Of a stretch of 54,563 bases of DNA, positions 1,143 through 40,910 are shown in pieces. Origin of the DNA: Pseudomonadota bacterium. GTDB lineage: Bacteria; Pseudomonadota; Gammaproteobacteria; Acidiferrobacterales; Acidiferrobacteraceae. The stretch lies in contig JAJYDT010000010.1 of assembly GCA_021777335.1 (NCBI GenBank), positions 1 through 54,563 on the forward strand, written 5' to 3'. A program made the position numbers and the translations under genes. The number at the start of each line of letters is the position of its first letter. Position 1 is the stretch's first letter. Below the pieces are notes generated by a model that was not told where the DNA came from, did no database searches, and worked only from the letters and a program-made list of their open reading frames with translations.

Positions 1143-1802
1143 ATGCGTAACACGAAATGGATGGCATTGAAGCAGACGGCGCTCGCTGTGGCGCTCATCG
1201 GCACCGCGGTGAGCGCCTACGCCGCGACGGTAACCAATATGACGGTCGGCGGTGGCACGTTCTCCATGGGGGTCTTCGACTCTGGCCAAAACTGGACCAA
1301 CACAGGCAATCCATCGGCAAACCTGGTCGGTGGATACACGAATCTAGGGACGCTTTTCCAGTTCAACGGCAGCGGCGGCGCCGTGAACGCATTTACGGGC
1401 GACGGAACGACAGCTCCGTACGGCGGCGGCATGGTCAATGGGGGACCGGTACCTACCTTTGACACCTCCGGCAGCACGATTTCGGGCAATCTATCCTCAT
1501 GGACGGTGTTCTGGAACGGGACCAACTTCAACCAGGGCGCCGATCCCGTGAGCGGCACCTGGAACTCCAGCACAGGGGCTTATAGCATCGCCTGGACGTC
1601 AACAATCCACGGCGGGCCTTTCAACGGGCAGACCGGCAGCTGGTCGTTTAATGGTGTCGCAATCGCCGGAACCACGATCACGCCTCCGACCACGAATCCG
1701 ACCGGAGGGACATCACCCGTGCCAGAGGCGTCTATGACCGCAATGATGCTGACCGGCCTGGCGTTACTCCGTGTACTGACCCGGAAAAATCGTTTCTCCT
1801 GA
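1143..1802 (+). CDS. PEP-CTERM sorting-domain protein
   Basis: This exported 219-residue protein has a signal peptide (residues 1-28, ending VSAYAA) and a Thr/Ser/Gly/Asn-rich, beta-type body with no Cys and almost no Lys. Its last 28 residues form an exosortase sorting signal: PVPEAS, a hydrophobic segment (MTAMMLTGLALL) and a basic tail (TRKNRFS). In such systems the exosortase recognises this tail and processes the protein during export. The motif is PEA rather than the usual PEP. The ATG at 1143 is preferred over an upstream in-frame start because AGGTGGAGG lies 4 bases before it. The body shares blocks (NLVGGYT, WNGTNFNQG, GGPFNGQTGSWSFNG) with the gene at 9234-9959, so the two are paralogues. 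The role of the body is unknown. Confidence 0.85.
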   Translation: MRNTKWMALKQTALAVALIGTAVSAYAATVTNMTVGGGTFSMGVFDSGQNWTNTGNPSANLVGGYTNLGTLFQFNGSGGAVNAFTGDGTTAPYGGGMVNGGPVPTFDTSGSTISGNLSSWTVFWNGTNFNQGADPVSGTWNSSTGAYSIAWTSTIHGGPFNGQTGSWSFNGVAIAGTTITPPTTNPTGGTSPVPEASMTAMMLTGLALLRVLTRKNRFS

Positions 1803-3916: not shown

Positions 3917-6031
3917 ATGGAAAAAATCGGTTCGATCAGCTATGGCATCAGCGCGGCATCTTATCTGATCCTGTGCCTGATGTTGTTGATGGGTTGGCGT
4001 GACCGTCCGCAGAAGACCGCCTTTGTGCTGGCTGCTGCCGTCAGCGCTGTCTGGGCCGCGGTCATGGCCTACAACACGCACCAGGCGCTGCCAACCCTTG
4101 TGATCGATCTGGCCGAGCTGGCCCGGGATGTGACCTGGCTCGTCTTCCTGTTGCGCCTGTTGGAGAACGCGCGCGACGAAAACGACCGGCGTGCCGGATG
4201 GTGGCGATTTGCCGCCATCAGCACGTGCGGATTCTCCCTGCTGCTCCTCACCACCGGCGTTTGGGATCAGTACGCCCGCAAACCGTGGCTGCTCCCGGGG
4301 CATGTCGACCCCGTCACCATTGCCTTTTTGTCGCTCGCCGTCACCGGGCTCGTCCTGACCGAACAAGTCTTTCGCAACGCGCGTTCTGACGCCCTACGAT
4401 CGATCAAATACCTGTGCCTCGGGATCGGCGGGGTCTTCGCGTACGATTTTTATCTGTATGCGAACGCCCTCATGTTGCATGGCGTCAGTGTGTCGCTATG
4501 GCTCGCCCGTGGCGCGATCGATGCCCTCATTGTGCCAATCCTGGCGGTAGCGATCATCCGTGACTCCGAGTGGTCGCGTGACATCTTCATCTCGCGCCGC
4601 GTCGTATTCCGCACCAGCGCCCTGCTGGGAGCCGCCATCTATCTCTTTGCCATGGGTGCCGGAGGATACTATGTGCGCCATGATGGCGGTACCTGGGGTG
4701 TCATCGCGCAGACCATCTTCCTGTTTGGCGCCGGATTGTTGCTGTTGATCCTGTTGTTCTCGACGCCGTTGCGCGCGCAGCTGCGCGTTCTGATCAACAA
4801 GCACTTTTTCCGCTACAAGTACGACTATCGCGAGGAATGGCTTCGATTTATCCGCACCCTGTCTTCCAACGGCTCCGGGGCACAGCTGCATGAGCGGGCG
4901 ATCCTGGCGCTTGCCCAGATCGTGGGCAGTCCTGGCGGCGTGCTGTTCATGCGGGCCGACAGCGGCAACTTTGAAGCCGTGTCGCACTCGAACATGACGT
5001 ATCAGGCCACTGCCAGGGAACCGGTAAACGGCGCGTTCAGCAGTTTTCTCGAGAAGCACGAGTGGGTGGTGAATCTGGACGAACACGAAGGCAGAGACGA
5101 ATCCGGGTCCCAGCAGCTTGCCGTCAGTCTTGTGCTTCCGGGCTGGCTGCGCGAGTTTCCACAGGCGTGGCTCGTGGTGCCGCTGATCATCGAGGACCGG
5201 CTCCTCGGGTTCACCGTGCTGACACAACCCCGGGCGCGGTACCGGGATTTCAACTGGGAAGACTGTGATCTCCTCAAGACCGTGGGCCGTCAGGTGGCCA
5301 GTCATTTGCTTCAATGTGAAACCGCACGGGCGTTGGCCGATGCGCGCCAGTTCGAGACCCTCAACCGGCTGTCCGCGTTTGTCGTGCACGATCTCAAGAA
5401 TCTGGTGGCACAACTCTCTCTGGCCGTATCGAACGCCAACCGGCACTCGCACAATCCGCTGTTCGTTCAGGATGTGATACGGACGGTGGATAATTCGGTC
5501 GCCAAGATGAATCGGCTGTTGTCGCACTTGCGGGCGGGCGGCACTCCCGTCGAACAAAAGGTCCAGGTGGACCTTGCGCAGCTCCTCAAGGAGACGGTCA
5601 AGGCCTATGCAGCGAATCACCCGATGCCGCGACTCGAGGGGCAGATCGAAGGCACAATCGTCATGGCCGATCGTGATCGCCTGTCGGCCGTCGTCGGCCA
5701 TATCATCCAGAATGCACAGGATGCGACATCACCGGAAGGGCGTATTGTGGTACGCGCCGAACGGAACGGAAAATACGTCTCCGTGGACGTGGAGGACACG
5801 GGCAGCGGGATGGACGAATCCTTTATCAGGGAGCGGCTGTTCCGCCCCTTCGATACGACCAAGGGGAACTCCGGCATGGGCGTCGGCGCCTACGAGACCC
5901 GGGAGTTCGTGCGGGCACTGGGGGGCGACGTGCAGGTCTACAGTCAACCGGGCCAGGGAACCACGTTCCGGATCCAGATCCCCTATCTGGATGTCCCCCA
6001 GGGAAACGTGAGGTATCTGAGTGCGCGCTGA
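3917..6031 (+). CDS. prsK: PEP-CTERM system histidine kinase PrsK
   Basis: This 704-residue sensor kinase is the partner of PrsR in exosortase/PEP-CTERM systems. Roughly the first 290 residues form a multi-span membrane domain starting GISAASYLILCLMLL, followed by a GAF-like region (about 300-460). The kinase core has the phosphoacceptor in VVHDLKNL (H491), an N-box (HIIQNAQDAT, N599), G1 (DTGSGMD), an F-box (LFRPFDTTK) and G2 (GMGVGAYETREF). The motif HDLKN with this membrane domain is diagnostic for PrsK. The gene starts at an ATG with only a weak ribosome-binding site. Its end overlaps the prsR start by 11 bases, so the two are translationally coupled. The signal it senses is unknown. Confidence 0.93.
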   Translation: MEKIGSISYGISAASYLILCLMLLMGWRDRPQKTAFVLAAAVSAVWAAVMAYNTHQALPTLVIDLAELARDVTWLVFLLRLLENARDENDRRAGWWRFAAISTCGFSLLLLTTGVWDQYARKPWLLPGHVDPVTIAFLSLAVTGLVLTEQVFRNARSDALRSIKYLCLGIGGVFAYDFYLYANALMLHGVSVSLWLARGAIDALIVPILAVAIIRDSEWSRDIFISRRVVFRTSALLGAAIYLFAMGAGGYYVRHDGGTWGVIAQTIFLFGAGLLLLILLFSTPLRAQLRVLINKHFFRYKYDYREEWLRFIRTLSSNGSGAQLHERAILALAQIVGSPGGVLFMRADSGNFEAVSHSNMTYQATAREPVNGAFSSFLEKHEWVVNLDEHEGRDESGSQQLAVSLVLPGWLREFPQAWLVVPLIIEDRLLGFTVLTQPRARYRDFNWEDCDLLKTVGRQVASHLLQCETARALADARQFETLNRLSAFVVHDLKNLVAQLSLAVSNANRHSHNPLFVQDVIRTVDNSVAKMNRLLSHLRAGGTPVEQKVQVDLAQLLKETVKAYAANHPMPRLEGQIEGTIVMADRDRLSAVVGHIIQNAQDATSPEGRIVVRAERNGKYVSVDVEDTGSGMDESFIRERLFRPFDTTKGNSGMGVGAYETREFVRALGGDVQVYSQPGQGTTFRIQIPYLDVPQGNVRYLSAR

Positions 6032-7409
6032 GGACGCGGTGCGACGCGCTTTGGCGGAAAAATCAAAACCCAAGTTATTGGTCGTGGAAGACGACCCGGG
6101 GCTGCAGAGCCAGCTCCGGTGGTGCTTTGACCAGTATGATGTGCTGATCGCCGGCGACCGGGAAAGCGCCCTTGAGCAGATCAAGCGCCACTCACCTCCG
6201 GTCGTCACGCTGGACCTGGGGCTGCCGCCCGATGCCGATGGAAGCCGCGAAGGGTTCGCCGCCCTGGGGCAGATCCTGGCGATGGCACCTGACACGAAGA
6301 TCATCGTCGTCACAGGCAACAACGAACGGGATAACGCAGTGCGCGCCGTCGGGATGGGCGCTTACGACTTTTATTATAAGCCGATTGATGCCGCCATCCT
6401 GGGCATCATCGTGAATCGTGTCCAGCGTGTTCACGAACTCGAAACGGAAAACCGCCGGCTTTCGCGGAACCGGCTGGAGACACCGCTGGCGGGGGTTCAG
6501 GCCAACAGTCCGGAGATGCTCAAGGTCTGCCGGATGATTGAAAAGGTCGCGCCGTCCGATGCCTCCGTCCTGCTGCTGGGGGACAGCGGCACGGGCAAGG
6601 AGCTGCTGGGCCGTTCCCTGCATACGCTCAGCCCGCGCGCGGGCGAGCGCTTCTGCGCGATCAACTGCGCGGCCATCCCCGAAAATCTGCTGGAAAGCGA
6701 GCTGTTCGGCTACGAGAAAGGCGCGTTCACCGGCGCCGGCAAACAGACACCCGGCAAGATCGAGCACGCGGACGGCGGTACGCTGTTTCTGGACGAGATT
6801 GGAGATCTGCCGATGGCGCTTCAGGCCAAAATGCTCCGGTTTCTGGAACAGCGTGTGGTGGAGCGCATTGGCGGGCGCGAGGAGATCCCGGTGAACGTCC
6901 GGGTCGTCTGCGCGACCCATCAGGATCTTCCGGCCAAGATCCAGGATGGCACATTCCGCGAGGATCTCTATTATCGGATCAGTGAGGTCACGGTCAATAT
7001 CCCGCCGCTGCGGACCCGTAGCGGTGATGTGCTGCTGTTAGCGCGCTCGTTTCTCGAACAGTACTGCAGCCAGGAAAACCGGCGCCGCCTCAGTTTTGGG
7101 CCCAGCGCGCTTGCGGCGTTAGAAGGGCACTCGTGGCCAGGTAATGTGCGCGAACTCAAGAACCGGATCACGCGGGCCGTGATCATGGCCGAGGGGAAAC
7201 AGATTACGGCAAAGGATCTCGAGCTCGAGGTACCGGGTCAGGAAGGGACATCATTCAGCCTTCGTGAGGTCCGGGAACAGGCGGAACGTCAGGCCATCAC
7301 GCGTGCGCTGGGACATACCGGAGGCAAGATCAGTGACGCGGCGGATCTGCTGGGAATCAGCCGTCCCACGCTGTACGATCTGATACGCAAGCTGCATCTG
7401 CGGATTTAG
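6021..7409 (+). CDS. prsR: PEP-CTERM-box response regulator PrsR (sigma-54 activator)
   Basis: This is a 462-residue NtrC-type activator. The receiver domain (about 16-135) has the acidic pair ED-D (23-25), phosphoacceptor D65 and KP (about 119). The AAA+ domain carries Walker A GDSGTGKE (187-194), the sigma-54 contact loop GAFTGA (234-239) and the Walker B-like LFLDEIGD. The C-terminal Fis-type helix-turn-helix reads GGKISDAADLLGISRPTLYDL. Translation starts at a GTG inside the end of prsK. PrsR homologues activate PEP-CTERM and polysaccharide genes with RpoN. The near-consensus sigma-54 promoter of the PEP-CTERM gene at 9959 fits this role and is a plausible direct target. Confidence 0.93.
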   Translation: MRAEDAVRRALAEKSKPKLLVVEDDPGLQSQLRWCFDQYDVLIAGDRESALEQIKRHSPPVVTLDLGLPPDADGSREGFAALGQILAMAPDTKIIVVTGNNERDNAVRAVGMGAYDFYYKPIDAAILGIIVNRVQRVHELETENRRLSRNRLETPLAGVQANSPEMLKVCRMIEKVAPSDASVLLLGDSGTGKELLGRSLHTLSPRAGERFCAINCAAIPENLLESELFGYEKGAFTGAGKQTPGKIEHADGGTLFLDEIGDLPMALQAKMLRFLEQRVVERIGGREEIPVNVRVVCATHQDLPAKIQDGTFREDLYYRISEVTVNIPPLRTRSGDVLLLARSFLEQYCSQENRRRLSFGPSALAALEGHSWPGNVRELKNRITRAVIMAEGKQITAKDLELEVPGQEGTSFSLREVREQAERQAITRALGHTGGKISDAADLLGISRPTLYDLIRKLHLRI

Positions 7410-7460: not shown

Positions 7461-8747
7461 TCAGAACTTTATACCCCAGTTCAGGTTAAGCTCGTATTCA
7501 TGCAGATAAACATAGGTGGGACCTCTTCCGAATTGGAGGAATGATGGGTTCGCACCTTGGTATACCTTCTGGGGCATCCCCCACATCGCCGCCACGGTCA
7601 GATCCTGGGTATGCGTGATATGTCTCGTGAATCCCGCAGTGATGTCGCGTTGAATCACGCCCGGTGCCAAGGTATTGAACATCAGCTGGTCACCAGGAAC
7701 AGGCTGGGTGTTATAGGCAAAACCAGCACGCCAAGTCCATTGCCGGCTGGTCGCGATCTGATAGCCGAGCTTATAGACCGTAATGTCCTGCCAGCCAAAC
7801 CCTGGACCACTTTCACCCCCCAAACAATAGGGAGAGTTTGGCTGGGTCGGGCTCGAAAAGCATTGGTTCATATAACTCCCCGAATGGCCAATGGACGGGA
7901 TCGCGCCATACATGATGCGCTGGACGTCAAACGCGACCACCTGGTGCCGGAGGGGTTTGAATGCGAGACCCCCAGTCCAAGTCTCCGGAATATTGAAATT
8001 GCCACCGTCGGCAAACAGACCCGAGTAACTGGCAAAGCGCGACATGTGGATCTCTGGCGTCCAGGAAAGACCTAAATTGAGGTTCCGCATCAGCCGTATC
8101 TGCGTCCCCAGCCGTATACCGAAGCCGGTGCCCATATCGACCCCGTTGTTAGTGAGCGCAGCGGCATTGGTGCTGTTTCCACTGAATGCACCCAAGCCAG
8201 AATCGCTGAAGTACTGGCGGACATAGAGCAGGCCCACACCGACTGAATCGTGACGCGTGAATTTGTAGGCATAGCTTGCCTGCATGAACAGCTGCTTGAA
8301 ATTGACGCCTGTCTGCCCGGCAAAGAATGTATTCGCTATCTTGTAATTGGTCGACATGCCGCCGTTGCCATACATGGCCAAACCGACCGTGTTGCTTCCG
8401 TCAAGCGCATAGGTCACGCCCACGTGCGGAATCACGAAGAAGTCCGAGCTGCTCCCGCAATAGACGCAGTGTGCAGGGGCCAAAGAGTTGGCACTATACC
8501 CCCTGAACGCCCAGAATGCCGCCGCACCGAGATCGACCCGGCTACCGACAAAGGCGATACCTGCAGGGTTGACTGCCTGCGCCATACTGTCCTCCGGCAG
8601 AGCGACCCCGGCTCCCGCAAGCCCATCATTCTTGGAGCTGTAACCCAACTCAAAATACCCTGCCGTCGTGGCGAGCGCCGCGACTGGCATGGCTGCCAGA
8701 ACGGCAGCCAGCGCGGCGGTAACCGCCAATCTCTTCGTGCGTACCAT
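7461..8747 (-). CDS. FadL/OmpP1/TodX-family outer-membrane protein
   Basis: This 428-residue beta-barrel protein belongs to the family that carries long-chain fatty acids and other hydrophobic compounds across the outer membrane. A signal peptide (residues 1-27, ending VAALA) precedes a mature start near TTAGYFELGYSSKNDGLAGAGVALPEDSMAQAVNPAG, the family's N-terminal hatch region (AGAG and NPAG motifs). Alternating beta-strand sequence follows, and the protein ends in Phe (NWGIKF), as expected for recognition by BamA. The ATG at 8747 is chosen because AGGAGG lies 6 bases upstream; an earlier in-frame start has no such site. It is convergent with prsR. A TATAAT on the minus strand at 8855-8850 may belong to its promoter. 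Two Cys in HCVYCG near residue 85 could form a disulfide. The substrate is unknown. Confidence 0.88.
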   Translation of the reverse strand: MVRTKRLAVTAALAAVLAAMPVAALATTAGYFELGYSSKNDGLAGAGVALPEDSMAQAVNPAGIAFVGSRVDLGAAAFWAFRGYSANSLAPAHCVYCGSSSDFFVIPHVGVTYALDGSNTVGLAMYGNGGMSTNYKIANTFFAGQTGVNFKQLFMQASYAYKFTRHDSVGVGLLYVRQYFSDSGLGAFSGNSTNAAALTNNGVDMGTGFGIRLGTQIRLMRNLNLGLSWTPEIHMSRFASYSGLFADGGNFNIPETWTGGLAFKPLRHQVVAFDVQRIMYGAIPSIGHSGSYMNQCFSSPTQPNSPYCLGGESGPGFGWQDITVYKLGYQIATSRQWTWRAGFAYNTQPVPGDQLMFNTLAPGVIQRDITAGFTRHITHTQDLTVAAMWGMPQKVYQGANPSFLQFGRGPTYVYLHEYELNLNWGIKF

Positions 8748-9082: not shown

Positions 9083-9110
9083 AAAAAAACAGGGGCCGCT
9101 TGGCCCCTGT
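9083..9110 (-). terminator. Intrinsic terminator of the second PEP-CTERM gene
   Basis: On the minus strand ACAGGGGCC and GGCCCCTGT form a perfect 9-bp stem with a 4-base loop, followed directly by TTTTTTT. It lies about 120 bp past the stop of the gene at 9234-9959. Confidence 0.9.
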
Positions 9111-9233
9111 CAGGTTCAGGCGCGACGGCCTTGTGGGCCGCCGCCTCCTGCGATTGTCTGCTACTTTTAAGTCTCTATTCCGTGCGAGATCCGGGGTCAC
9201 GGGAATTTCCCATGGTTCCCGAACCATGCCCGG

Positions 9234-9959
9234 TCAGGCGCCCTGGTTAGACTTCTTCTTGCGGCGCGCCACGGCCACCAAGCCCACCAAGCCCGTGCCG
9301 AACAGCCACGCCGCGGCCGGAGCCGGTACCGGAGTGACCGCCGTGGTCGACCCTGTGCCGTTAAATACCCAGGTGCCGGTCTGGTTGTTGAACGGGCCGC
9401 CCGAAATCAGCGACGTCCAGGTCAAGGTGTAGTCGAAGCTGGTGCCGGAGACGTTCGAGATGGTACCTGTCGCCGCAGAATTGCCCTGGGCGAAGTTGGT
9501 TCCGTTCCAGTTGGCGAAGAACGAGCTCAGGTTCGCCGTGATCGTGGCGCCATTGGTGAGACTCGAGATCGTGGCACTCGGAACCGGGCCACCACCCGCC
9601 ACATTGGAGGACGCTGCGGTGAAGGTATTCACCCAGGTGCCGCTGCCGTTGAAGTTAAAAGACGCGATTGAACCTGATGCGGCGCTGTTCTGGGCTACCG
9701 CCTCGTTCCATCCCGGCGTGCTGTAACCGCCGACCAGGTTGAAGGAGCTATTGGTCGCTACAAGGGGTTGCCCGGTGTCGAAACCTTTCATCCCGAAGCA
9801 GCTACCTGCACCAGACGTACATGTGCTTGCTCCGAGTACGCTGCTGTTGGTTACGTTCAGCATGGTCACTACCGTCGACGCACTGGCCGTCGCGATTCCA
9901 CCTACCGTGCCAATGGCGGTCGCCATTGCTGCTGCTAACATCTTTCTTTTAAAGGTCAT
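9234..9959 (-). CDS. PEP-CTERM-like exported protein (VPAPA-type tail)
   Basis: This 241-residue exported protein has a signal peptide (about 1-28, MTFKRKMLAAAM to TASAS). Its C-terminal sorting signal consists of TPVPAPAAAWLFGTG, a hydrophobic run and the basic cluster ARRKKK. This is the VPxPA variant of exosortase-type signals rather than canonical PEP. The body is Ser/Thr/Asn/Gly-rich and shares NLVGGYS, WNGTNFAQG and GGPFNNQTGTWVFNG with the protein at 1143-1802, so they are paralogues. Two Cys near residue 45 (TCTSGAGSC) may form a loop. The ATG at 9959 has GGAGG 9 bases upstream; a longer start lacks support. A strong sigma-54 promoter lies 104 bp upstream and a terminator downstream, so it is a single-gene unit. 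Confidence 0.85.
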   Translation of the reverse strand: MTFKRKMLAAAMATAIGTVGGIATASASTVVTMLNVTNSSVLGASTCTSGAGSCFGMKGFDTGQPLVATNSSFNLVGGYSTPGWNEAVAQNSAASGSIASFNFNGSGTWVNTFTAASSNVAGGGPVPSATISSLTNGATITANLSSFFANWNGTNFAQGNSAATGTISNVSGTSFDYTLTWTSLISGGPFNNQTGTWVFNGTGSTTAVTPVPAPAAAWLFGTGLVGLVAVARRKKKSNQGA

Positions 9960-10548
9960 TTCCTGATTCCTCCAAAAAGCTCCTCTAGAGCGAAAAACTA
10001 TTTCGTGTCGGTTCGCCATACGAGATCAGCGAGCGTCGGCCGAAATAGACGCAGGGATCATAGCAAGACCTGTGCCATCCGTATAGTTATTTGATTATAA
10101 ATCACTATTTTCGATAAGCGCAGTGAGATCGTAAAGATATCCGACAGGTCTCCCAACCCAGATCGCGGCCAGCAGCCACGGCATTTCCTCTCGAATACAG
10201 GGTGTTGGACATCGGTCCTCAAAGATCCCTCAGGAACACCGGGACCCTGGGTACCCGGCGCCGCAATCTTCCCTGATCGGTGAGTTTTCCCAAAAAGCAA
10301 GTAAATAAAGTATTTATAAACAATGGTGTACTGCTCAATTCTGTTGTAAAGAACTTCGACATCTCCGCGTTACCCATCCGCGAGATCCTCGTTCGACCCC
10401 TGTGGAGCTTGCTTGGCCTTGCGCCACAAGATAGGGGAAGATTCTACGCATGCCCACAAGGCGCGGTCGCCCCGTTGCGGGATTTGCAGGGGCTGGATTC
10501 TGCAAAACGCGAGGATGATCAGGCAGCGTATGGTGACGTCGGGCACCA
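9960..10548. other. Intergenic region before the insertion sequence
   Basis: These 589 bases contain the sigma-54 promoter at 10063-10077. The rest holds only short frames in several registers. On the minus strand 10548-10330 reads like eroded coding sequence in more than one frame, without a domain I recognise. It may be the residue of an older element or gene. Confidence 0.4.
10063..10077 (-). promoter_or_regulatory. Sigma-54 promoter of the second PEP-CTERM gene
   Basis: The minus strand reads TGGCACAGGTCTTGC. Against TGGCACG-N4-TTGC only one defined base differs (A for G). The -12 element is 104 bp from the ATG at 9959, predicting a leader of about 90 bases. Sigma-54 promoters require an AAA+ activator, and PrsR is encoded 2.6 kb away. 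Confidence 0.75.
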
Positions 10549-10572
10549 CTAACCCATCTTTCGCTATTCGCC
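10549..10572 (+). repeat. Left terminal inverted repeat of the IS
   Basis: CTAACCCATCTTTCGCTATT plus four more bases match the right end in 23 of 24 positions. Confidence 0.88.
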
Positions 10573-10713
10573 TCCCTATGGACACCATTCGTTGATTTTG
10601 GCAGGGCATAACGTTCTGAAGTGATGAGCATTTGACGATTCCGAGGGTGGAAAAACGCGTGTAGTGAAGACTTGGGTGCTTGCCAACGCCGCCAGAGTTT
10701 TTACACTGCGCAC

Positions 10714-12492
10714 ATGTTTTTGAAATGTACCGAACGCCACAAGGACGGCAAGACGCATCGCTACTGGAGCGTCGTCGAGAACCGGCGGCTGGCCAAAGGC
10801 CGCATCGCTCAGCGCCACGTCCTGTATCTGGGCGAGATCAACGACAGTCAACAACAGGCATGGCGCCACACCGTCGAGGTCTTTGACGAGGGTCGTGCGC
10901 GCCAGCTCGCGCTCGTGGCGCACGAGGCGGTCGCGTTGAATGAGACGGATATCGTGAGTCTGCGGATCAATGAACTCAGCCTGCATCGCCCGCGGGAGTT
11001 CGGCGCCTGCTGGCTCGCCGGTGTGCTGTGGAACCAGCTGGCGTTATCCGAGTTCTGGGAAGCGCGGCTGCCCGCCTCGCGCAAAGGCACCCGGTGGGCG
11101 GCCGTCCTGCAAACGCTGGTCACGTATCGACTGCTCGATCCGGGCAGTGAGTGGCGCCTGCATCGCCACTGGTTTACCTCGAGCGCGATGGGAGACTTGC
11201 TCGATGCCGATTTTACCTTGGCCGAGAAGGACACCTTGTATCGCTGTCTGGATAAACTCCTGCCGCACAAGGACGAGCTCATTCAGTTCCTGACCCGGCG
11301 CTGGGGCGAGCTCTTCGCGGTCCGCTTCGATGTGCTGCTCTACGATCTCACCTCCACGTACGTGGAGTCCGACACACCCCGTGAGGCAGAGGATCTCCGT
11401 CAGTACGGGTACAGCCGCGATAAACGCGGCGACTGCCGGCAGGTGGTCATTGGCCTGATCGTGACCCCGGAGGGCTTCCCGTTGAGTTACGAGGTCCTCG
11501 CCGGCAACACGGCCGACTGCACCACGCTCGGAGATTTCTTAAAGCGCATCGAGGCGCGTTACGGCAAGGCGAATCGAATTTGGGTCATGGACAGGGGGGT
11601 GCCGACGGAAGCCACGTTGGCCCACATGCGGGCGATGGGCGCCTCCTATCTGGTCGGCACGCCGAAAGGACGGCTCACGCAACTGGAGGGTGATTTACTC
11701 GCCAAACCGTGGCAGCAGGTGCGTGCGGGATTACAGGTGAAGCAACTGCCGCGCGCCGGGGAAACCTATGTCCTGGCCGCGAGTGAGAAGCGCGTCAGCA
11801 AGGAGCGCGCCATGCGCAAGCGCCGTCTCAAAAAATACCTGGCCACCTTGAAGCAATTGCATGCGAAGCCCCCGGCACGAGATCAATTGTTGATGCGCAT
11901 CGGGGCCGCCAGGAAAGCGGCCGGGCGCGCCGGGGGCCTGGTCACCCTGACGCTGCCCAGGGCCACGGACGGGGTCACAGCCGAGACCTTCCGCTTCGTG
12001 CTTGATCGCAAGAAGTTGCGACGACAGCGGCGTCGCGAAGGCCGCTATCTGCTGCGCACCAACTTAACCGGTGATGACCCCGCGCCACTGTGGACCTTCT
12101 ACGTGCAGCTGACCGAGGTCGAGCAGGCCTTCAAGGAACTCAAGCACGATCTCGCGATCCGCCCGCTTTACCATCAGCTCGAACATCGCATCGAGGCGCA
12201 CATCTTCGTGGCCTTCCTCGCCTATTGCCTGCACGTCACGCTCAAACATCAATTGAGACAGCGGGCCCCGGGGCTAACGCCACGGGCGGTGCTCGAGAAA
12301 TTCAAAACGATCCAGATGATCGATGTGCGCATACCCACGAGTGATGGGCGAACGCTCACGCTCTGCCGTTACACGCAACCCGAGCCCGAGCATCGTATGT
12401 TGCTTGATGTGTTGCGGCTGCAATTGCCCGCGCAACCTCCGCCCAAAATTACCGCCGATCAGCTCCACGCCGCCGACACCGGTGTGGCGTAG
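10714..12492 (+). CDS. IS1634-family transposase
   Basis: This 592-residue DDE transposase (IS4-like superfamily) catalyses excision and insertion of the surrounding element. The N-terminus MFLKCTERHKDGKTHRYWSV is typical of IS1634 transposases and decides the start; a start 42 bases upstream is less likely. Catalytic candidates are the first Asp in LLYDLTSTYVES, the second in IWVMDRGVP and the Glu in LTEVEQAFKELK, which continues into LAIRPLYHQLEHRIEAH. The frame is full length and uninterrupted. Long Arg/Lys-rich stretches near 380-470 fit DNA binding. Confidence 0.93.
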   Translation: MFLKCTERHKDGKTHRYWSVVENRRLAKGRIAQRHVLYLGEINDSQQQAWRHTVEVFDEGRARQLALVAHEAVALNETDIVSLRINELSLHRPREFGACWLAGVLWNQLALSEFWEARLPASRKGTRWAAVLQTLVTYRLLDPGSEWRLHRHWFTSSAMGDLLDADFTLAEKDTLYRCLDKLLPHKDELIQFLTRRWGELFAVRFDVLLYDLTSTYVESDTPREAEDLRQYGYSRDKRGDCRQVVIGLIVTPEGFPLSYEVLAGNTADCTTLGDFLKRIEARYGKANRIWVMDRGVPTEATLAHMRAMGASYLVGTPKGRLTQLEGDLLAKPWQQVRAGLQVKQLPRAGETYVLAASEKRVSKERAMRKRRLKKYLATLKQLHAKPPARDQLLMRIGAARKAAGRAGGLVTLTLPRATDGVTAETFRFVLDRKKLRRQRRREGRYLLRTNLTGDDPAPLWTFYVQLTEVEQAFKELKHDLAIRPLYHQLEHRIEAHIFVAFLAYCLHVTLKHQLRQRAPGLTPRAVLEKFKTIQMIDVRIPTSDGRTLTLCRYTQPEPEHRMLLDVLRLQLPAQPPPKITADQLHAADTGVA

Positions 12493-12547
12493 TGCAGACT
12501 TTTAAGACCGCTACTCGATGAATCAAAGGGTTAGGATCATCAGTACG

Positions 12548-12571
12548 GGCGAATAGCGAAAGATGGGCTAG
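12548..12571 (-). repeat. Right terminal inverted repeat of the IS
   Basis: The reverse complement starts CTAGCCCATCTTTCGCTATT and mirrors the left end with one difference at the fourth base. Confidence 0.88.
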
Positions 12572-12601: not shown

Positions 12602-13396
12602 ATGACCATTCTTCTCTATCTCGCGGTCGGTGCAATGGTCGGCCTGTTTGCCGGCATGTTCGGGATTGGTGGTGGCGGTATCGTCGTGCCCGCCCTGCTT
12701 TTCGCATTCAGCCGACAGCATATTGATCCTGCGGTGCGCATCCATCTCGCTATTGGCACTTCCCTTGCCACCATTGTGTTCACTGCGCTCTCTGCGATCC
12801 GCGCGCAACAGAAACGCCACGCCATTGACTGGCCGATTGCACTTACCATTGCACCGGCAACACTCATTGGCAGCCTCGCAAGCGGCTACCTCGCAGGATT
12901 CATCGTACCGTCAACGCTCAAGATGATCTTCGCCGTGTTCCTCGGGCTGATCTCGATCCAGATCCTCTCGAACTGGCACCCGGCGCCCCATTGGAGGTTA
13001 CCGTCACGGCTGGGGCTGCTCGCGACAGGGCTTGGGATCGGCGCCTTGTCGGCCATGATCGGCATCGGCGGCGGCAGCATGACGGTACCATTCCTCAGTG
13101 CCTGTAACGTCGACATGAGACGGGCGATTGCGATCTCGGCGGTCCTCGGCCTGCCAATCGCCCTGTTCGGTACCTTCGGTTTCGTGCTCTCCGGGTGGCG
13201 CCACCCGGGCCTGCCACCGTGGAGCGCGGGCTACGTATACCTGCCGGCGCTGATCGGCATCGTGAGCACGTCCACCCTCACGGCGCCGCTCGGGGTCAGG
13301 TGGTCGCACCACCTTCCGGTTGCCCCACTCAGGCGGATTTTCGGGTTCCTTCTTCTGGGTGTTGCCGTCCAAATCATGTTTGGGATAATGGGGTAG
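12602..13396 (+). CDS. TSUP-family (TauE/SafE) membrane transporter
   Basis: This 264-residue integral membrane protein has about eight hydrophobic segments in two homologous halves. Each half carries the family's glycine-rich loop: GMFGIGGGGIVVPAL (about 19-33) and SAMIGIGGGSMTVPFL (about 150-165). Members export or import small anions and sulfur compounds such as sulfite, sulfoacetate or thiosulfate. The substrate here cannot be read from sequence. It begins 30 bp after the right end of the IS, so an outward-reading IS promoter might affect it. No strong ribosome-binding site is seen in the usual window. A sulfur-oxidising host would make a sulfur role attractive, but that is speculation. 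Confidence 0.88.
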   Translation: MTILLYLAVGAMVGLFAGMFGIGGGGIVVPALLFAFSRQHIDPAVRIHLAIGTSLATIVFTALSAIRAQQKRHAIDWPIALTIAPATLIGSLASGYLAGFIVPSTLKMIFAVFLGLISIQILSNWHPAPHWRLPSRLGLLATGLGIGALSAMIGIGGGSMTVPFLSACNVDMRRAIAISAVLGLPIALFGTFGFVLSGWRHPGLPPWSAGYVYLPALIGIVSTSTLTAPLGVRWSHHLPVAPLRRIFGFLLLGVAVQIMFGIMG

Positions 13397-21416: not shown

Positions 21417-25340
<3,924 letters not shown>

Positions 25341-37534: not shown

Positions 37535-38899
37535 TTATTGGAGAATTCTCACAAAATCATTGTAAAACGCCAACACCATGAGCCCCAGTAACAGGAGGAT
37601 GCCCACCCTCTGCCCCCATCCCACGATGCGTTCTGAAACCGGCCCCCCCTTCAGTGCCTCAATGAAATAGAACAGGAGATGGCCCCCGTCGAGTACAGGC
37701 ACCGGCATCAGATTCAGCACGCCAAGGCTCACGCTGACTACCGCGAGGAATGTCAGGAAGCTCGCAAGCCCAAGCTGCACTGAGTAACCGGCGTACTGCG
37801 CGATAGTGATTGGCCCACTGATGTTCTTGGGTGACACCCGCAGCAGTACCATCTTGTAAAGCATCTCGACAGTCAAGGCCGACATTGCCCACGTGTTTTC
37901 CCAGGCGCCGCCGAGCGCCGCGATAGGTCCAAGCCGAACCGTGGTCCGCAGCGAGTTGGGTATGTGTGGAAAGCGCACCATCGCGTCGATGCGTCCGATC
38001 AACCGGTTTCGCACATGCACCGACTTGGGCGTCACAATGATCATCAGCGTCTTTCCATCGCGGTCCACCTGAAGGTGAAGCGTGCGATTCGGCATCGCGC
38101 TGATATCGTGTACGAGTTCCTGCCAGGTGTGAATGGGCTGTCCCTGAACTGCGACCACACGGTCCCCGGGGCGCAATCCCGCCCTGGCCGCCGGCCCGTT
38201 CTTGATCACGGCGCCGATGACCGGTTGTATCTTCGGAAGGTAGCCATAAAGCCCGATCGTCCGCTCAAACCGTCCGCTGCTGATGTCCCGCGCTGACACA
38301 CCACGGAAGCTTAAGCGTCTTACCCGGATTTGCCCTTGGGGGTTACGCACCTTAATGCGGACTGTATCGTGCTGGAGCGCCTCCTGGAGCAACATCAGCC
38401 GGGGCTGATCCCAGCTCAGGACACGCTTGCCGTCAATCCTCAGCATCACGTCGCCCACGCGGAACCCAGCTTTGGCCGCGGGCGACCCGGGAACCACCCT
38501 GCCCACCACAGGCACGATGCCGGGTACTCCGAGCACCAGGACAAACCAGTAGGCAAGGAATGCGAACAGAAAATTGAACATCGGGCCCGCAGCGACAATG
38601 GCTGCCCGCTTTGGAAGGGGCTGGCGGTTGAAGGCACGATGAAGCTCACCGGGAGGTACCTCACCCTCGGTTTCGTCCAGCATCTTCACGTAGCCGCCAA
38701 GCGGTACGGCGGCGATCGCGTACTCGGTCCCGTCGGGACCGGCGCGGCGGGACCAGAGAACCTTGCCGAAACCCACCGAAAAGCGCAGCACCTTGACACC
38801 AAGGAGGCGGGCGACCCAATAATGCCCGAATTCGTGCACAATCACGAGGATCGCAATGGCAAGCACAAACCCCGCGACACTGTACATGATTCCGGTCAT
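37535..38899 (-). CDS. rseP: Site-2 protease RseP
   Basis: This 454-residue intramembrane metalloprotease cuts anti-sigma factors (RseA-type) and leader peptides. The zinc motif HEFGH is at 22-26 in the first membrane segment. Two PDZ domains follow (GFRVGDVMLRIDGKRVLSW and GLRPGDRVVAVQGQPIHTW). The third metal ligand lies in NLMPVPVLDGGHLLFY. Membrane segments close the C-terminus. Start and dxr stop overlap as ATGA. Confidence 0.97.
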   Translation of the reverse strand: MTGIMYSVAGFVLAIAILVIVHEFGHYWVARLLGVKVLRFSVGFGKVLWSRRAGPDGTEYAIAAVPLGGYVKMLDETEGEVPPGELHRAFNRQPLPKRAAIVAAGPMFNFLFAFLAYWFVLVLGVPGIVPVVGRVVPGSPAAKAGFRVGDVMLRIDGKRVLSWDQPRLMLLQEALQHDTVRIKVRNPQGQIRVRRLSFRGVSARDISSGRFERTIGLYGYLPKIQPVIGAVIKNGPAARAGLRPGDRVVAVQGQPIHTWQELVHDISAMPNRTLHLQVDRDGKTLMIIVTPKSVHVRNRLIGRIDAMVRFPHIPNSLRTTVRLGPIAALGGAWENTWAMSALTVEMLYKMVLLRVSPKNISGPITIAQYAGYSVQLGLASFLTFLAVVSVSLGVLNLMPVPVLDGGHLLFYFIEALKGGPVSERIVGWGQRVGILLLLGLMVLAFYNDFVRILQ

Positions 38900-40137: not shown

Positions 40138-40910
40138 AGCGATGCCAGCGCATATACAGGGGCGGCCGCGGTAAAACCATCGATCCGGTCAAACACCCCG
40201 CCGTGGCCCGGCAGAAGATGTCCGCTGTCCTTAACGCCAGCGATGCGCTTTGCGCGACTCTCAGTAAGATCGCCGATAAGCGAGAACAGGGCCAGCGCCA
40301 CTGCGACGAGCGTCCATAACCCGAGATCCCGGCCCGCAAGGTGCAGAACAGTTCTTCCGGTCACATAGCCCAGCAGGCTTACACCCGCCACGGCGCCGGC
40401 CAGTCCCTCCGCGCTCTTGCCAGGACTCACATGCGATGCGATCTTTGTTCTCCCTAACGGTTTGCCAATAAGGTAAGCGGCGATATCGCAAAAGGAGACC
40501 AGCACGAGAAGCAGCGCGCTGCGCAAATGACCAGCAGGCGATAACGCCACCAAAGCAAAGGCGCGCCACGCTGGCACGAGAATTGCGATTCCGGTGGCCA
40601 TTCTACCCCAGCGACTTGAGAAAAGCCCCCAGTCGAGCCGGTCGCGGATCAATAAGAGTTCCCCGGACAACCACAGCCACAATCCGACTGCAGCGATCAT
40701 GAGCAATACCGGTGGAACAAGAAGCGACAAACCCCCCGTGGCCGCGGTTGCGAACACATAGGCCATCTTTCCCCGGGATCCCAGCTTGTTCAAACCCGCC
40801 CATTCAAAGGACGCAACCAGCGCGATGGCGCCCATGAATGCCGCAAAGGCCTGGGGCGGAAACTTAAGAACCGCGAAGATCATGAGCGTGATCAACGCTA
40901 ACGCGGTCAT
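40119..40910 (-). CDS. cdsA: Phosphatidate cytidylyltransferase
   Basis: This 263-residue multi-span membrane enzyme makes CDP-diacylglycerol for phospholipids. The family signature near the C-terminus reads SLIGDLTESRAKRIAGVKDSGHLLPGHGGVFDRIDG, with the DRxD metal motif. About seven hydrophobic segments precede it. The ATG at 40910 has AAGGAG 6 bases upstream, so it is preferred to a GTG at 40928. The catalytic domain is complete and the protein is a little shorter than in E. coli. Confidence 0.96.
   Translation of the reverse strand: MTALALITLMIFAVLKFPPQAFAAFMGAIALVASFEWAGLNKLGSRGKMAYVFATAATGGLSLLVPPVLLMIAAVGLWLWLSGELLLIRDRLDWGLFSSRWGRMATGIAILVPAWRAFALVALSPAGHLRSALLLVLVSFCDIAAYLIGKPLGRTKIASHVSPGKSAEGLAGAVAGVSLLGYVTGRTVLHLAGRDLGLWTLVAVALALFSLIGDLTESRAKRIAGVKDSGHLLPGHGGVFDRIDGFTAAAPVYALASLWLSRP

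Follow-up and report, generated by a model that had tools for sequence, protein, structure and literature searches.

A predicted sigma-54 promoter with putative PrsR-type enhancer sites precedes an exosortase-tailed protein gene in an uncultured gammaproteobacterium

Upstream of a minus-strand gene that encodes a secreted surface protein with an exosortase-type tail, we identified a site that, on the strength of its sequence, is very probably a sigma-54 promoter equipped with two PrsR-type enhancer sites and placing the gene under tight control. As an explanation of the whole, a single-gene promoter driven by PrsK/PrsR and sigma-54 is strongly favored, with a probability of roughly 0.9. The features that make up this arrangement are listed in Table 1, with positions given in the window, i.e. 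the whole 54,563-nucleotide stretch of DNA that was analyzed. The regulatory principle is already known, and the site adds a further example to an arrangement that was set out in 2006 and has since been confirmed in part by experiment.

Table 1. Features of the predicted promoter, its target gene and the associated regulators.
Feature	Position	Strand	Remarks
First tailed gene (gene 1), PVPEASMTAMMLTGLALL tail	1143..1802	plus	36% identical paralogue of target
prsK, membrane histidine kinase	3917..6031	plus	TIGR02916, 766.9 bits
prsR, sigma-54 activator response regulator	6021..7409	plus	TIGR02915, 695.8 bits; GAFTGA; Fis-type HTH
Intrinsic terminator, strong hairpin and T run	9088..9111	minus	3' of target gene
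Target gene, 241-aa protein, tail VPAPAAAWLFGTGLVGLVAVARRKKK	9234..9959	minus	N-terminal secretion signal and TIGR03370
Sigma-54 -24/-12 promoter (predicted) TGGCACAGGTCTTGC	10063..10077	minus	pattern match
Proximal PrsR-type enhancer (motif 1, putative) TGTCGGATATCTTTACG	10130..10146	minus	52 nt upstream of -24 element
Distal exact motif 1 copy (putative) TGTCGAAGTTCTTTACA	10345..10361	minus	215 nt further upstream

The target gene, whose ATG at 9959 is preceded by a GGAGGA ribosome site, codes for a protein that ends in an exosortase-type tail and scores above the cut-offs of both TIGR03370 (VPLPA-CTERM; 27.0 bits, cut-off 25.35) and TIGR02595 (20.9, cut-off 16). Its score against NF033554 (PepA) is 28.1 bits, under the equivalog cut-off of 80, which places it outside the PepA family; any likeness to PepA is one of function only. 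By analogy with PepA, its role is probably to hold exopolysaccharide to cells. The gene is followed by a terminator hairpin and is therefore a single-gene unit.

The protein parts of the proposed system are all present in the genome. There is one copy of rpoN, with an intact ORF that retains both the N-terminal glutamine-rich region and the RpoN box ARRTIAKYRE, and absence of rpoN, which the initial annotation had named as counter-evidence, is thereby excluded. PrsK (704 aa) and PrsR (462 aa) are complete family members; the intact GAFTGA loop claimed earlier for the PrsR of this window is found in a full-length protein, the C-terminal helix-turn-helix segment of which (LLGISRPTLYDLI) is common to homologues. 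PrsR exceeded the family cut-off in 0/17 same-family genomes examined, so that no close orthologous promoters were at hand for comparison, and this lineage may have acquired the PrsK/PrsR cluster, or the others may have lost it. A dnaE comparison placed the contig not clearly within its family; the contig carries the only full-identity dnaE of the genome, the other match being 32% identical. A second PrsR (L130; G000:C43:1-965), 320 aa long, cut by the contig end and 70% identical in protein to that of the window, was set aside as a probable binning contaminant, its DNA being 96.8% identical to the genome of another family.

Read from 10077 to 10063 on the minus strand, TGGCACAGGTCTTGC carries the -24 GG and -12 GC of a sigma-54 site and departs from TGGCACGNNNNTTGC by a single mismatch, an A for G after TGGCAC, while the last C of the -12 GC lies 104 nt from the ATG. 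Both the one-base departure and the distance agree with the initial annotation. From the usual 12-nt spacing, transcription is predicted to start at about 10051. Exact matches to TGGCACN5TTGC number three in the window (10063, 12754 and 40572) vs an average of 0.25 in 40 Markov-1 windows. Genome-wide there are 20, the majority within coding frames, and with up to one mismatch the count is 264 vs 205 for the reversed pattern. Because exact matches are this numerous and mostly intragenic, and because the reversed control comes close, the sigma-54 match taken alone is weak evidence and stands little beyond chance. The match at 12754 and the perfect consensus at 40572 are both intragenic and without motif 1, and were rejected as promoters; so was a near match on contig C131 (GGGCACAGGTCTTGC), where the DNA encodes a PEP-CTERM tail.

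The decisive feature, which is absent from the initial annotation, is the presence of motif 1 upstream of the sigma-54 site. The 17-nt box TGTCGGATATCTTTACG lies 52 nt upstream of the -24 element, a spacing inside the published range of 32-92 nt between motif 1 and motif 2; it ends in G, rarer there than A, whereas the distal copy ends in TTTACA. The full 17-mer was rebuilt from the sequences of relatives, and comparison with the published motif concerns the TTTACA ending and the spacing. A Markov test based on a matrix of six sequences discriminated weakly (random maxima up to 23.0 vs 26.1), and exact-pattern counts therefore took its place. Motif 1 combined with the sigma-54 site is the sole strict two-block match in the window, against none across 40 Markov-1 copies of it, and nowhere else in the genome is the exact two-block pattern seen. 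A sigma-54 site with a motif 1 box 52 nt upstream is thus well beyond chance. Exact motif 1 by itself occurs in five places in the 2.57 Mb genome, and this promoter region accounts for two. Two further copies, at 24539-24555 and 37855-37871, lie inside pyrG and rseP with no sigma-54 site nearby, for which reason motif 1 alone is not specific; with no promoter near, they were rejected as promoters and taken as chance, though fewer would be expected. Four of the five exact copies fall in the window, above the composition-based expectation.

With the sites, their spacing, the protein parts and, as set out below, the linkage to PrsR across genomes in hand, we infer the following course of binding and activation. 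Sigma-54 RNA polymerase would form a closed complex on 10077-10063, and the membrane kinase PrsK would activate PrsR. Phosphorylated PrsR would bind the TGTCG-N6-TTTACR boxes at 10146-10130 and 10361-10345 and loop to the promoter, where its AAA+ GAFTGA domain would open the complex; the transcript would begin near 10051 and end at the hairpin at 9111-9088. The earlier suggestion that the site is a concrete target for PrsK/PrsR gains support as a prediction from the intact rpoN, PrsK and PrsR and from the cognate motif at its published spacing.

A once-active promoter that is now silent or useless, the sorting system having been lost or an IS1634-family element having landed upstream, is improbable in our estimation, though it fares best among the alternatives. 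The first variant draws on a search for exosortase (PF09721), which gave no match in the 97.8% complete draft assembly despite the tailed proteins and PrsK/PrsR; however, the left end of the contig falls inside the cluster, adjoining epsD and tailed genes, so that an exosortase merely left unassembled is the simplest reading. The second draws on 24-bp inverted repeats of the IS1634 family at 10549-10572 and 12548-12571, but the enhancer boxes and promoter are intact on the gene side of the insertion, and the reading frames of PrsK, PrsR and the target are uninterrupted. The element itself spans 10549-12571, with a transposase at 10672-12492 (plus strand), and lies 188 bp upstream of the distal motif 1, leaving the promoter region intact. 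Among the other neighbors, a minus-strand gene for a predicted outer-membrane FadL/PorV-like protein (7461-8747) separates prsR from the target gene, and the contig starts within a minus-strand gene built of GINDNGTIVG-like repeats (1-474), a family whose other members in the genome, on contigs C76, C97 and C131, end in PEP-CTERM tails.

The two-block arrangement was also traced across genomes by searching 60 of them for the exact pattern TGTCGN6TTTACRN{38,68}TGGCAYN5TTGC, with a reversed control. Matches were confined to this site and one each in G023, G028 and G039, and the reversed pattern gave 0 matches in the 60 genomes. PrsR exceeds the family cut-off in this genome and in G021, G023, G026, G028, G030, G032, G034 and G039; the pattern is therefore found in 3/8 PrsR-positive relatives and in no PrsR-negative genome. 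With a looser seed, the same TGTCG box was found before tailed genes in G021, G026 and G032. At the tailed genes of relatives, TGTCGR-N5-TTTACR sits 53-75 nt before TGGCAY-N5-TTGC, and tailed genes with the 17-mer ahead of their sigma-54 site occur both in PrsR-bearing relatives and in distant gammaproteobacteria. A set chosen independently of the promoter comprised 48 loci encoding PrsR homologues from named genomes, at which tailed genes were found by a simple pattern (n=11) and the two-block promoter was scored by a loose criterion. The promoter precedes 6/11 of these tailed genes, positives including Rhodanobacter glycinis (L164) and two MAGs (L139 and L158), vs a background by the same criterion of 48/5120 arbitrary stretches from the same loci and the regions of relatives (~1%, true sites included) and 2/326 stretches in the window. 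Outside this genome, the link of the two-block promoter with tailed genes near PrsR is clear.

These results bear on a second alternative, that the sigma-54 promoter is genuine and is driven by some other sigma-54 activator of the genome. PrsR binding is a prediction, and the genome holds about 20 NtrC-type matches (21 to the PrsR model); the upstream box, however, tracks PrsR across genomes and precedes tailed genes near PrsR, and we consider this reading unlikely, slightly more so than a silenced promoter. A chance resemblance, in which case an ordinary sigma-70 promoter of this intergenic region would drive the target gene, is very improbable: sigma-54-like matches are common and a TATAAT-like stretch is located between the boxes, but no sigma-70-type promoter pair passes a scan of 9960 to 10700 and the joint architecture is missing from all the randomized windows.

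The predicted control by PrsK/PrsR through sigma-54 agrees with known systems. In Haft et al. 2006 (PMC1569441), most proteobacterial PEP-CTERM genes are described as having a 17-nt motif 1 ending in TTTACA, about 63 nt (range 32-92) from the sigma-54 motif 2, with 23-221 nt from motif to ATG and with repeated motif 1 copies; PrsR is there proposed as the motif 1 binder. The present site shares with that system the 17-nt TTTAC(A)-ending motif, here repeated, the sigma-54 -24/-12 site across a 52-nt spacer, a distance of 103-104 nt to the ATG, the single-gene unit, the long upstream intergenic region and a genome with PrsK/PrsR. It differs in that the tail of the target is VPxPA rather than PEP and that the proximal motif 1 ends in G. 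In Aquincola tertiaricarbonis RN12 (2023; PMC9850573), which also carries prsK/prsR, pepA is RpoN1-dependent and has a mapped start behind TGGCAC/CTGCTT. Both have a TGGCAC -24 element ahead of the gene for a secreted protein with a tail, whereas in Aquincola the start was mapped, rpoN dependence was shown, the -12 element is CTGC and the product is a PEP-type PepA, a family whose equivalog cut-off the present target falls far below. In Zoogloea resiniphila, as summarized in PMC9012009, the PEP-CTERM gene pepA is reported to be regulated by RpoN and PrsK-PrsR, i.e. the same regulator pair acting on a tailed gene; there the regulation was shown genetically, whereas here it is predicted.

The extent of the regulon differs as well. 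The enrichment before tailed genes within the genome, which the initial annotation proposed as a test, did not materialize: of the eight tailed genes scored, this one alone carries the two-block promoter, vs 99/167 in Haft et al. (PMC1569441). Upstream of gene 1 there is no convincing sigma-54/motif 1 promoter, and CTGCACGACACTTGC at 1023-1037, without the GG and without motif 1, was rejected as a candidate. The picture in relatives is similar, with the two-block promoter at just one or two of the many tailed genes of a genome (7/34, an upper guide, since the presence of the site was the reason for retrieving some of the regions). Not all of the regulated genes are orthologues. The ones in G021 (L205), G026, G028 and G039 form one family with 52-77% identity, with which the target protein has mainly the tail in common; its closest relative is gene 1, at 36% over the length. 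A tailed-gene start with doubled motif 1 and the sigma-54 site CGGCACGGCATTTGC was also seen on another contig of the assembly (L129; G000:C66:5338-5977). This gene was set aside as a probable binning contaminant, with 81% DNA identity to G021:C6, and is an independent instance of the same promoter design.

Since the cassette marks only one or two tailed genes of each genome within this taxonomic order, not all of them orthologous, a tentative and somewhat doubtful reading is that the PrsR cassette moves between cargo genes, and that PrsK/PrsR may control one VPxPA-tailed matrix protein and not the whole cargo. The site provides a concrete candidate PrsK/PrsR target in an uncultured gammaproteobacterium, together with an explicit PrsR box, TGTCGR-N5-TTTACR, which was rebuilt from the sequences of several families and is usable for listing regulons.
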